A DNA stretch of 32,292 nt, from IMG/VR virus record IMGVR_UViG_3300021136_000035, positions 1 through 32,292 of that record; one strand, written 5' to 3'. Within the stretch, counting starts at the first letter, position 1; every line of letters begins with the position of its first letter. A model generated the notes under the pieces. The model worked only from the letters and a program-made list of their open reading frames with translations. It did no database searches and was not told where the DNA came from. The position numbers were made by a program, and so were the translations under genes. This document shows, piece after piece, positions 1 to 3,038 of the stretch. The DNA comes from a virus.

Positions 1-41
1 GCCAAGTATTCGGCGGTTGTGTGTTTAGGTGTGTAGGTCAT
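1..41 (-). CDS. 5' end of a gene running off the left edge
   Basis: An ATG at 41-39 overlaps the TGA stop of the dNMP kinase gene in an ATGA arrangement, the same coupling used throughout this block. The frame stays open to the edge and gives MTYTPKHTTAEYL. Thirteen residues are too few to assign a function. The segment could be the start of a helix-turn-helix protein, but that is only a guess. Confidence 0.55.
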   Translation of the reverse strand, partial: MTYTPKHTTAEYL

Positions 42-577
42 TTAATCGCTCCCATTAGCATTTCAAGAGTTACTTCAAGGTCATAAATAGTTCCTGAGTT
101 ATCAATAACGCGATCAAACACCCACTCATCAAGAGCAGTTTCTGAGATGTGATTATTTATTGGCGCGACCTTGCGTTCAACTCTCCAGACCTCACCGAAT
201 AGCCATTTAATGTTGTCAGCTTCATCGGGGAATCGAACATCGGTGACAACAACTTTATGGTCAGGCTCAACATCGCCTAATGCCAACTCAATCCACAAAT
301 TAGCATCTATGAGATTTCTGCCTACCTCTGTTCCAAAAGTCTGCATAAGTCGGCGAACCTCGGGAAGTTGCTTGGTGCGCTCCCAACCGAAATCATCAAA
401 GTATTCTGAAAGGTGTAATGGGTATTCGGCGCGAGCAGTCACGATTGGATCAAGAGCAAACAGGCACTCTCTAATCTTGTCGGCAAAGGCAACTCGGCGA
501 TAGCCATAATGTTCAACGAGGATATTGGCGACTGTATCTTTCCCCGCGCCGGCTTTTCCTGAAAGGCCAATAATCAT
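38..577 (-). CDS. deoxynucleoside monophosphate kinase
   Basis: Predicted phage dNMP kinase that phosphorylates dNMPs to dNDPs for phage DNA synthesis in the cytoplasm. The protein (179 aa from this start) opens with MIIGLSGKAGAGKDT, a Walker A P-loop (GKAGAGKD, residues 7-14). It has a mid-protein DVRFPDEA segment and a C-terminal DRVIDNSGT segment, both typical of phage dNMP kinases related to T4 gene 1 (family knowledge). The frame is open further upstream to 658. I chose 577 because this ATG overlaps the stop of the FmdB-like gene by 4 bases (ATGA), has a G-rich ribosome site, and puts the P-loop at the usual distance from the N terminus. It is the last complete gene of the small-gene operon that begins near 2014. 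The kinase fold is clear; nucleotide preference cannot be read from sequence. Confidence 0.9.
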   Translation of the reverse strand: MIIGLSGKAGAGKDTVANILVEHYGYRRVAFADKIRECLFALDPIVTARAEYPLHLSEYFDDFGWERTKQLPEVRRLMQTFGTEVGRNLIDANLWIELALGDVEPDHKVVVTDVRFPDEADNIKWLFGEVWRVERKVAPINNHISETALDEWVFDRVIDNSGTIYDLEVTLEMLMGAIK

Positions 578-741
578 TTGCCACCCCATCCCCCACCGCG
601 AAAATGCGCCGGTGTTGCTTGAATAACTTTGCTCATGGGCTTTTGGCATACAGGGCAATTAGGTACTGAGTCGTCTGTAAATTGCTGATACATCTCGATA
701 GTTGAGGCATCGGCATTACAACGCCAGATATAGGTGGGCAT
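574..741 (-). CDS. small FmdB-like zinc-ribbon protein (55 aa)
   Basis: A 55-residue protein beginning MPTYIWRCNADAS and ending FRGGGWGGK. The MPTY-x-YRC start, a central CPVC knuckle (Cys29, Cys32) and the F-x-G-x-G-W tail match the FmdB/CxxC_CXXC regulatory-protein family (family knowledge). The first knuckle is degenerate: Cys8 is present but its partner at the expected CxxC position is Ala/Asp, so a normal four-Cys zinc site is incomplete. The start ATG abuts the stop of the winged-helix gene, and the TGA stop overlaps the kinase ATG by four bases, which strongly supports it as real despite its size. Role unknown; members are often small putative DNA- or RNA-associated zinc proteins. Confidence 0.8.
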   Translation of the reverse strand: MPTYIWRCNADASTIEMYQQFTDDSVPNCPVCQKPMSKVIQATPAHFRGGGWGGK

Positions 742-1023
742 TTAGAATAATCCAATCTGCTTAATGTCGGATGCAAGCCAAACGATGCACTCATTTCCGT
801 TGGGGTTTTTGCGGGTTTTGCCTGAGTCATAAATCAATTCATCTTTGAGTAATGAGAGGCGAGTAGGGCGAAGGGTATCGCCAGGCATTTTGAGGATTGC
901 TTGTAGCTCTTGATCCGTTGCGCCGTATTCCTGTTTATCAAGAATCAACTGATAAACCTTAGCGCGATTAGAACCAAATTTAGGCAGAGTCTTTTGATAA
1001 ACGGCTAGGGAAGTGGCTCTCAT
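742..1023 (-). CDS. winged-helix-like small protein (93 aa)
   Basis: Basic 93-residue protein. The segment from about residue 20 to 83 (YQLILDKQEYGATDQELQ, then LRPTRLSLLKDELIYDSGKT, then NECIVW) has the layout of a winged helix: helix, T-x-x-E-L helix, recognition-like helix with RPTR, then a beta wing with SG-x-x-R and a V-W strand. Similar small wHTH proteins are common in phage replication and regulation blocks. The start overlaps the preceding gene's stop (ATGA at 1023-1020), so it is translationally coupled. DNA binding is inferred from fold-like pattern only; the target is unknown. Confidence 0.65.
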   Translation of the reverse strand: MRATSLAVYQKTLPKFGSNRAKVYQLILDKQEYGATDQELQAILKMPGDTLRPTRLSLLKDELIYDSGKTRKNPNGNECIVWLASDIKQIGLF

Positions 1024-1190
1024 TGTGGCAAACCATATTTCGCTATTGAAATTGCTGCTGCCTTTGTGCGTTTAGATGCCGCGTACCAATCGCTTGAAAT
1101 GTCGGTAGGCGTTTCTAATTCCTCAAGGTCTTTAACAATCTGAGCGCGTAAATCTTTCAACGCTTGTTCCTTTTCCTCATCACAGGTCAT
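1020..1190 (-). CDS. hypothetical protein, 56 aa
   Basis: Not recognised. From the ATG at 1190 the protein begins MTCDEEKEQALKDLRAQ and is acidic and helical in its first half, then basic around KRTKAAAISIAKYG. The longer start at 1220 would bury 10 residues in the upstream gene; I prefer 1190 because it overlaps the upstream stop by exactly four bases (ATGA), as neighbours do. No zinc, membrane or enzyme motif is visible. It sits in the middle of the small-gene operon behind the SOS-type box. Confidence 0.6.
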   Translation of the reverse strand: MTCDEEKEQALKDLRAQIVKDLEELETPTDISSDWYAASKRTKAAAISIAKYGLPQ

Positions 1191-1441
1191 TTGTTTTCTC
1201 CAATCGCAATTTGAGCGCAAATATCTTGAAGCTGAAGGAGTGAGTTCTCCAGCCCGTTTTTAACAATCTGCTTTCGGCGCGTTGTCAAATCAAGAGCGCA
1301 AATCTCGTCATAAATTGCCAAACGAGTTTTGGCTTCAATAACTGCTTGCATCCTTAGAACAATCTCTTGCCCTTCAGGAGTGTCCAAAATAAGTTGTTTA
1401 TTCTTGATTTTCCAATGCTGGTCTTTGCAAAATAGTTTCAT
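1187..1441 (-). CDS. hypothetical helical protein, 84 aa
   Basis: Not recognised. The 84-residue product is predominantly helical, with heptad-like hydrophobics from IVLRMQAVIEAKTRLAIYDEI to LENSLLQLQDICAQIA, suggesting an antiparallel or dimeric coiled coil. The ATG at 1441 overlaps the stop of the 28-residue membrane microprotein by four bases, and its own stop overlaps the next ATG likewise. This makes it part of one tightly coupled operon. No catalytic motif. Confidence 0.65.
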   Translation of the reverse strand: MKLFCKDQHWKIKNKQLILDTPEGQEIVLRMQAVIEAKTRLAIYDEICALDLTTRRKQIVKNGLENSLLQLQDICAQIAIGENK

Positions 1442-1524: not shown

Positions 1525-1730
1525 GGGTTGCACCGAAAGTGTTGGCAAGTTCCCATGTTGCACTCGCCGTGATTTTCGTGGCACTCGTCACACCAATCGT
1601 AACCGTAGGAGTGTGGGTTGGTAGTGCTTTCGCAATCGCAAGTTATACATTCGCAAATGGCTTGATCCTCTTTGACGAGTTCAAGGATGCGGACATAAAT
1701 GTCTGGGAGTATTGGCTTGAGGCTGGTCAT
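1521..1730 (-). CDS. cysteine-rich small protein, probable zinc binder (69 aa)
   Basis: A 69-residue protein whose C-terminal two thirds is packed with Cys and His: C-E-C, C-D-C, W-C-D-E-C-H, H-x-E-C, G-T-C-Q-H, F-R-C. This suggests at least one, probably two, zinc sites. The first ~25 residues (MTSLKPILPDIYVRILELVKED) form a short amphipathic helix. It overlaps the LPD29-like gene's stop by one base (TAATG) and couples downstream to the microprotein. No named family recognised; metal binding is inferred from composition. Confidence 0.7.
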   Translation of the reverse strand: MTSLKPILPDIYVRILELVKEDQAICECITCDCESTTNPHSYGYDWCDECHENHGECNMGTCQHFRCNP

Positions 1731-1972
1731 TACGCCACCTGCTTCATTGCGCCGTAAGCATTAACAAAAACATATTGGGTAGCAAACTCGTTCCAACCTT
1801 CGTAAGCGTTAGCGATTGCATCAATTTCTGCACGGATTTCCTTATCGCCGTTGTATCCGATATTGATAACGCCGCAATCTACTGTGCGGACTTGAAACTT
1901 ATATGTAGGAAATTTTGCTTTTAGCTCTGCGCGAATTGTCTTTGCTGTTGTTGCTGTTGTTGTGTTTGCCAT
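1730..1972 (-). CDS. small protein resembling LPD29 (about 80 aa)
   Basis: Sequence such as TAKTIRAELKAKFPTYKFQVRT, then GVINIGYNG, then an acidic helix and a Y-V-F-V strand resembles the large polyvalent protein-associated domain 29 family (IR-x-E-L-K-x-x-FP-x-x-KFSVR...V-x-V-x-W), found free-standing or fused in phage and mobile-element proteins (from memory of the family; not searched). The domain's biochemical role is not established. It is the first gene of the small-gene operon. I chose 1972 because AAAGG sits about 8 bases upstream; an earlier ATG at 2014 would add 14 polar residues and is a possible alternative. Confidence 0.65.
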   Translation of the reverse strand: MANTTTATTAKTIRAELKAKFPTYKFQVRTVDCGVINIGYNGDKEIRAEIDAIANAYEGWNEFATQYVFVNAYGAMKQVA

Positions 1973-2065
1973 TTTCTTGCCTTTCGTCAGATTCTCCGTT
2001 CGTTCCTCTGACATGACAAAACTTACTCCCTACGCAATAGGGAAGCAATCATTTTCGGCAAAATC

Positions 2066-2093
2066 TTTATAACGATTTTGTTACTTTAGTCAT
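2066..2093 (-). promoter_or_regulatory. putative promoter of the small-gene operon
   Basis: On the minus strand, ATGACT (2093-2088; TGAC matches the -35 consensus) is separated by 16 bp from TATAAA (2071-2066; 5 of 6 to the -10 consensus). This lies 50-100 bp before the candidate starts at 2014 and 1972. The -10 sits in the loop of an inverted repeat CAAAATC...GATTTTG (2080-2074 and 2065-2059). The SOS-type box directly abuts the -35. Inferred from sequence only. Confidence 0.5.
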
Positions 2094-2107
2094 CGAACAG
2101 ATGTTCG
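2094..2107. promoter_or_regulatory. LexA/SOS box
   Basis: CGAACAGATGTTCG is a perfect match to the Gram-positive/actinobacterial LexA (DinR) operator CGAAC-N4-GTTCG, including the purine/pyrimidine pattern of the centre. It lies in the gap between the HNH gene stop (2109) and the small-gene operon, touching the predicted -35. Binding would be expected to hold the downstream operon off until host DNA damage. No lexA-like gene is in the window, so the host LexA is the presumed ligand. I found no second GAAC-N4-GTTC in the window by eye. Confidence 0.65.
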
Positions 2108-2108
2108 C

Positions 2109-3038
2109 TTATTCCTCATCGGACTCTAGGGGCTGATCAAAAATTTCAATTTCTACATAGGCGTAAATTGCCCCCGTTGCGCCTCTTTTTCGCATCATCA
2201 CAAGCTGGATCAGGGCTTCCCAGACTTCAGGCTCGCCGGTAAAAGTGCGACCCCCAAGAATGGTGACAATTTGGTGGCAGCCTGGGCAAAGGGCAATTAA
2301 ATATTCATTTTCGGGATCGTTTTCTTTGCCAATTACATGGTGGCTTGATAAACCTTTTATATTTGTTCTTGAACATAATTGGCAGGTTCTTTCAGCCAAT
2401 CCAATCGTGTTATTTCTCTTTCCTCCAAAATAACTTTGATTTGTTCGATAATCATTTCCGCATTGACGAGAGCAATAAATTTGCTTATTGGTGAATGGTA
2501 TAAATTCTTTTTTGCAATTTGGGCATAATTTTTCGGGTAAATTGCTGTGTGTCCGGCGATGATCTATCCACCATTCCGGAAAATGACGCTCGATGGCCTG
2601 AGCTAGTGTTTCTGCGCTAAGACTATTTTTTTTGGCGAAAGTTGTTATTTTTTCATCCATAAAATCAATTTCATCTATGTAGCTTTTAAGGCTTGCTTTG
2701 TCGTAACCCTTGCCTCTTGGGATTTTTTTGCTGCCTTTATTGCCAGCGTGATTACCTAAACCCAAACGGGAAATTTTTAACGCAATTCCGGCGTAGGGTC
2801 TGCCTAATCTATGAGCAATTTGAGCAATTGTTAAATTAGCCTCTTTGAGTTTTTTTAATTCTTCATACTCTTGTTCTGTCCAATTACGATTAGCCATTGG
2901 GTAGCCAATTTTCTGCAAGCGTTCATGAACCGCTTGACCAGCCATTCCAAGTTTTTTGCCCGCGTTCCAAACCGAACCCGTTAATTGGTAAGCCTCAATT
3001 ATTTGTTCGTTGGTAAATCTCGGTGTAATCTTTGCCAT
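2109..3038 (-). CDS. HNH endonuclease with helix-turn-helix N terminus
   Basis: Probable free-standing (homing-type) HNH nuclease, 309 aa. Residues 8-45 and 54-95 look like two helix-turn-helix/Myb-like DNA-binding segments (WNAGKKLGMAGQAVHERLQ and LTIAQIAHRLGRP). A four-Cys zinc knuckle follows (C172-x2-C175 and C189-x3-C193). The HNH core has CQLC (219-222), SHHVIG (H233-H234) and LCPGCHQ (C251, C254), the treble-clef HNH pattern. Ribosome site AAGGAG precedes the ATG. It sits between an unrelated small gene and the SOS-box operon, a typical position for an inserted selfish nuclease gene. A leader of about 120 bp contains a GC-rich imperfect hairpin. Target site unknown. Confidence 0.88.
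   Translation of the reverse strand: MAKITPRFTNEQIIEAYQLTGSVWNAGKKLGMAGQAVHERLQKIGYPMANRNWTEQEYEELKKLKEANLTIAQIAHRLGRPYAGIALKISRLGLGNHAGNKGSKKIPRGKGYDKASLKSYIDEIDFMDEKITTFAKKNSLSAETLAQAIERHFPEWWIDHRRTHSNLPEKLCPNCKKEFIPFTNKQIYCSRQCGNDYRTNQSYFGGKRNNTIGLAERTCQLCSRTNIKGLSSHHVIGKENDPENEYLIALCPGCHQIVTILGGRTFTGEPEVWEALIQLVMMRKRGATGAIYAYVEIEIFDQPLESDEE

Follow-up and report, generated by a model that had tools for sequence, protein, structure and literature searches.

The DNA stretch analysed here (an IMG/VR virus record, 32,292 bases long and with 43% G+C, referred to as the window) was found to carry a single perfect LexA-type box, CGAACAGATGTTCG, ahead of a run of small genes. Comparison with related phages shows that this box is conserved under selection, present in single copy, and placed at the head of what appears to be an early-type operon. 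It seemed fairly probable that it is a genuine host LexA operator which would restrain the operon and be released by DNA damage. The features discussed are listed in Table 1.

Table 1 Features at the LexA-type box and in the adjoining operon (positions are those of the window; nt, nucleotide positions).
Feature	Position (nt)	Strand	Remark
HNH-type endonuclease, in place of RusA	2109..3038	-	stop codon 1 bp from box
LexA-type box CGAACAGATGTTCG	2094..2107	. (palindrome)	perfect match, conserved slot, identity to host operators
AT-rich spacer (73% AT), box to promoter	2049..2093	-	length classes about one helical turn apart in relatives
Predicted -35, TTGCTT	2048-2043	-	EM promoter model on 43 relatives
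Predicted -10, TAAGTT	2025-2020	-	EM promoter model on 43 relatives
5'-leader hairpin, AACG-containing loop	1985..2013	-	covaries in relatives
LPD29 domain gene (PF18847), first cargo gene	1730..1972	-	start 1972 likelier than 2014
Cys-rich small protein, 69 aa	1521..1730	-	no family match
Small putative membrane protein, 48 aa	1438..1584	-	
Conserved 84-aa protein	1187..1441	-	no known family
66-aa protein	1020..1220	-	no known family
Winged-helix protein, phrog_1123	742..1023	-	phrog_1123: function unassigned
FmdB-like zinc ribbon	574..741	-	just below Pfam cut-off
Deoxynucleoside monophosphate kinase (PF21448)	38..577	-	

Almost all likely genes of the window are on the minus strand, in the order tail, head, lysis, exonuclease, single-strand annealing protein (SSAP), exonuclease, WhiB, replication initiator, box and small-gene run. 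A nucleotide search of the window against cultured phages returned a single short match and nothing more. The window was assigned to an actinophage, and the host is inferred to be an actinobacterium, from the WhiB gene and from the SSAP, which has its best cultured relatives in Mycobacterium phages. The phage group is a previously undescribed family of freshwater (lake) actinophages.

The initial annotation, made from the sequence alone, had described the box as an exact match to the actinobacterial LexA operator, too rare as a fixed ten-base palindrome to be expected by chance, and located ahead of the small-gene operon, and on these points it was correct. CGAACN4GTTCG occurs once in the window, where 0.021 (independent bases) or 0.014 (first-order Markov) perfect matches are expected, while sites with two mismatches number 10, which is the chance level. 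With a weight matrix for which 61 operator-like sites were taken from the vicinity of 30 actinobacterial lexA genes the box scored 20.6 bits, against 5.0 bits for the runner-up position in the window and maxima of 3.7–19.8 in 30 simulated windows. It sits between the stop of the HNH-type ORF and the LPD29 gene; a tRNA or known RNA at this site was rejected by search.

Absence of the box from relatives that keep the operon had been named beforehand as a result that would speak against it, and the opposite was observed. Relatives were gathered via the SSAP, the winged-helix gene and the upstream gene, which in most of them is the RusA Holliday-junction resolvase (PF05866). At a RusA identity of at least 75%, 40 distinct loci were compared, and in 30 of them a perfect GAACN4GTTC was present within a slot from -5 to +12 of the RusA stop, in contact with the stop codon of the preceding gene. 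Five further loci of the 40 (L055, L168, L183, L193 and L194) have one or two mismatches in the slot, and in L074 the box is placed behind an extra gene. At more distant RusA loci it was found in 1 of 22 at 50–65% identity and in none of 14 at lower identity. GAACA..TGTTC is the sole invariant block of the aligned intergenic region: the spacers, the upstream gene and the downstream cargo all vary among relatives, and the box is retained whether it follows RusA, the HNH ORF or another gene. Each of the 17 records tested contains exactly one GAACN4GTTC, in 16 cases in the RusA slot. In the window and in L002 and L003 the HNH-type ORF replaces RusA and the box is retained 1 bp after its stop.

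The sister phages L197, L198, L196 and L202 have no box after RusA. Instead, TTAGAACATCTGTTCGAA lies ahead of the SSAP operon, on the stop codon of a gene for 347 aa (in the record of L202, 345 aa; second-slot loci L276:2878, L277, L278 and L279). The lineage therefore retains a single box, at the promoter of either of two early operons.

Host LexA very probably binds the box and is its most likely partner, in view of the operator-like sequence, the near-universal occurrence of lexA in Actinomycetia genomes and the lack of any phage LexA or repressor in the records searched. Among 395 such genomes, PF01726 (LexA) had matches in 386, of which 384 exceeded the cut-off. The lexA promoters of small actinobacterial genomes (1.2–1.6 Mb; most loci 44–54% G+C, two at 59 and 65%) carry operators of the form GAACANNYGTTC, with the outer bases drifting as they do in the phage boxes. 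Six small genomes contain just two to four perfect sites each, most of them before lexA, recA or dnaE2-like genes, which were recognised by eye from the beginnings of their proteins. The exact 14-mer of the window is the recA operator in two small actinobacterial genomes and the dnaE2-like operator in others, and several phage box variants are identical to host lexA, recA or dnaE2-like operators. The box also shares its sequence, symmetry and extended core GAACANNYGTTC with the actinobacterial SOS box, for which the motif of Streptomyces venezuelae LexA is tCGAAC-N4-GNNCGa (PMC9380542). On the phage side, integrase (PF00589), resolvase (PF00239) and S24 repressor (PF00717) were not detected in 17–20 phage records, which are fragments. 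A phage-encoded LexA homologue was considered and rejected, as no LexA-domain protein exceeded the cut-off in 20 phage records (best sub-threshold match E=0.0025 over 26 residues).

The position of the box relative to its promoter differs from that in the hosts. In the host genes examined SOS boxes sit on the -10/+1 region, while the phage box falls outside the interval from -35 to +1 of promoters that are themselves predicted. An EM model of -35 and -10 elements (seed TTGNNN/TANNNT, refined without a positional prior on 43 relatives) gave TTGnnn-16/17-TAnnnT as the sole conserved promoter, downstream of the box. The -35/-10 pair that had been proposed to abut the box was not borne out: no good pair is present there, and the conserved -10 lies 45–69 bp downstream. 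The relatives were also examined for a promoter at the box itself, which is the host arrangement, and none is conserved; TATAAAT before some boxes forms part of the stop region of RusA and is missing from the window. The -10 begins 45–47, 55–58 or 66–69 bp past the box in the relatives (68 bp in the window), so that the box is about 65–88 bp upstream of the predicted start, with centres at about -65, -76 or -87. Locus L088 is an outlier at 72 bp, while L045 and L193 were judged to be mis-assigned, L045 changing to 66 bp if TAGATT, which it has in common with L055, is taken as the -10.

A hairpin in the 5'-leader, located just downstream of the predicted conserved promoter and just ahead of the ribosome-binding site, supports this promoter as the real one. 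Its loop is constant (GAACGGC or CGAACGA) and its stem covaries, pairs 1 and 2 beside the loop each occurring as four standard pair types among 12 distinct sequences. It is present in the window and in L006, L007, L052, L058, L062, L073, L078, L079, L088, L098, L197 and L279. A search of Rfam gave no match, and the hairpin appears to be a cis-acting RNA element that is so far undescribed. It was seen also at other operons and without a box after RusA, for example in L197 at 3456 and 6148. For the LPD29 ORF a start at 1972 is more probable than one at 2014, because the ATG at 2014 is inside the hairpin whereas that at 1972 is preceded by a ribosome-binding site.

The operon had been reported as a run of at least nine coupled genes; eight co-directional genes are present before the contig ends, the edge being reached right at the dNMP kinase, the last gene of the run. 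The small genes between the box and a conserved block (in the window, from the box to 1441) are hypervariable cargo that differs in nearly every relative. A direct search with the LPD29 protein recovered no relatives because this first cargo gene is variable. The conserved block consists of the genes for the 84-aa protein, the winged-helix protein, the FmdB-like protein and dNMP kinase. Most products of the operon are undescribed. The winged-helix protein (93 aa, conserved) has a predicted fold with pLDDT 80; a search with this fold gave weak matches (E=0.001 or worse), mostly to winged-helix proteins, and its comparison with cultured phages gave no relatives. In a relative with a 36.5 kb record (G007) the genes after that for dNMP kinase include those for an HslV-like protease, SSB, a PAPS-reductase-like protein and terminase, and therefore the box may gate more than small genes.

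According to the mechanism we favour, host LexA dimers on the box would hold down the operon promoter in undamaged cells. DNA damage, from the environment or from the infection itself, would activate RecA and lead to LexA cleavage, upon which the operon would be fully expressed. The gated genes would be the variable small cargo and those for the winged-helix protein, the FmdB-like protein and dNMP kinase, with SSB and terminase added in relatives. DNA-damage induction of the operon is thus plausible, and viruses of this family probably sense the damage alarm of the host via the box. Given the distance of the box from the predicted start, control would not be by simple promoter blocking, and it would be exerted from upstream, by contact with RNA polymerase or with the AT-rich region before the promoter, or by interference there.

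The three spacing classes, about 11 bp apart, bear on this point and are suggestive only of a bound protein that touches RNA polymerase rather than occluding the promoter. With 19 lineages taken as independent the mean vector length was 0.82 at a period of 11.1, and none of 20000 uniform draws was as high. The classes share ancestry, however, and counted as three events they gave p=0.009, or p=0.29 if L088, the outlier, is added as a fourth, while the second-slot distances (about 83, 97 and 100 bp, counted by hand) are out of phase with the RusA-slot classes. Helix phasing is therefore kept as a hint, being strong for independent lineages, weak if only length classes count and unmatched in the second slot. 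One-turn classes could equally be compatible with activation, in which LexA or a LexA-like protein acts from upstream via RNA polymerase, so that the operon would be on in healthy cells and off after cleavage. An activating LexA homologue is known, namely gp6 of phage GIL01, centred at -43.5, and further cases of LexA-mediated activation are cited in the same work (PMC6182141), but gp6 is phage-encoded and no counterpart of it was found in 20 phage records. With the ancestry and phase of the spacings also against it, activation appears unlikely. LexA is, moreover, chiefly a repressor.

A phage regulator, such as a winged-helix or WhiB-like protein, might instead use a LexA-like palindrome, with host LexA uninvolved or acting as a competitor. 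The conserved winged-helix gene in the operon and the WhiB gene upstream would provide candidates, and phage operators consisting of a single site exist. The winged-helix gene is, however, present also in relatives without a box in the RusA slot, and the identity of box variants with host operators, the parallel drift of their outer bases and the lack of LexA-domain proteins over the cut-off in the 20 records make such a regulator rather unlikely. It is decidedly improbable that LexA at the box serves as a roadblock that keeps transcription of the recombination operon upstream from running on into the cargo operon. The genes are all co-directional, the box abuts the upstream stop codon in both slots and DNA-bound repressors such as LacI are established as roadblocks (PMC4132739), but the cargo operon has its own conserved promoter after the box and a roadblock has no need of spacing classes. 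That the palindrome is no protein site at all is very improbable: chance is excluded by the conservation in relatives, a short terminator hairpin, for which a 5-bp stem could form, was rejected because no T run follows in the direction of the operon and the outer pair departs from C-G in 14 of the 31 copies, in most cases with no compensating change, unlike an RNA stem, and a cassette recombination joint, which the exchange of upstream genes at the box would fit, leaves the identity with host SOS operators and the second slot unexplained.

The preferred reading, repression by host LexA, has partial parallels. In GIL01 of Bacillus thuringiensis lysogeny is held by host LexA with gp7, and gp6 is a LexA-like activator (PMC4551915, PMC6182141). 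As in GIL01, a host LexA-type site is found, here from sequence, at a phage promoter and no dedicated phage repressor was detected; unlike GIL01, which has tandem boxes in P1/P3 and is unrelated, these tailed actinophages have one box per record and no LexA-like gp6 was found. Temperate phages of the 186, CTXphi and Gifsy type have LexA-controlled antirepressor or lytic genes (cited in PMC9437464 and PMC3121763), and share with the present phages a host LexA-type site ahead of phage genes, but here neither a repressor/antirepressor pair nor an integrase was found. In the 'lytic deferment' of alphaproteobacterial phages host master-regulator (CtrA) sites occur in promoters in the absence of a classical lysogeny switch (PMC9437464). 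The conserved master-regulator site and the failure to find such a switch are common to both groups, whereas the CtrA phages have many sites as opposed to one and differ in regulator and signal. No report of LexA control in these freshwater actinophages was found in the literature searched. Thus, the borrowing of host LexA by phages is already known, and here it is seen in an undescribed phage group and with an unusual single-site geometry.

A more general proposal, offered tentatively and with doubt, is that actinophages lacking a repressor and an integrase read the SOS state via a single upstream LexA site, whose helix-phased contact with RNA polymerase would hold or activate the promoter, giving otherwise lytic phages a damage-gated timer for variable small genes. 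To our knowledge, no described phage uses a single helix-phased upstream LexA site in this manner. If so, phages of abundant freshwater actinobacteria would time undescribed small genes by the host damage alarm without an ordinary temperate lifestyle, and, DNA damage being common in sunlit lake water, UV exposure would be tied to infection outcome. Besides CtrA, there would then be a second example of a host master regulator that is read by lytic-looking phages, and with the box-promoter geometry the action of LexA from an upstream position could be tested cleanly.

Some additional features were noted. The HNH-type ORF of the window, exactly at the position of RusA in the relatives, has a weak NinG/Rap resemblance, and is possibly a non-orthologous replacement of RusA, or else has displaced it as a homing endonuclease. 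In the sister clade clustered TGAACANNCGTTCA and GTTCAAC inverted repeats occur at an apparent replication-initiator gene (L080:976, L111:871, L112:772 and L197:2352), and could be origin iterons that resemble LexA half-sites by coincidence. Last, at the dnaE2-like promoters of the host loci L285, L292, L293, L295, L296 and L298 the LexA box is preceded by TGTCAGT, TGTCGGT or TGTCAGC, which we take to resemble the PafBC damage-response motif, and dual control of dnaE2-like genes in streamlined actinobacteria is possible.
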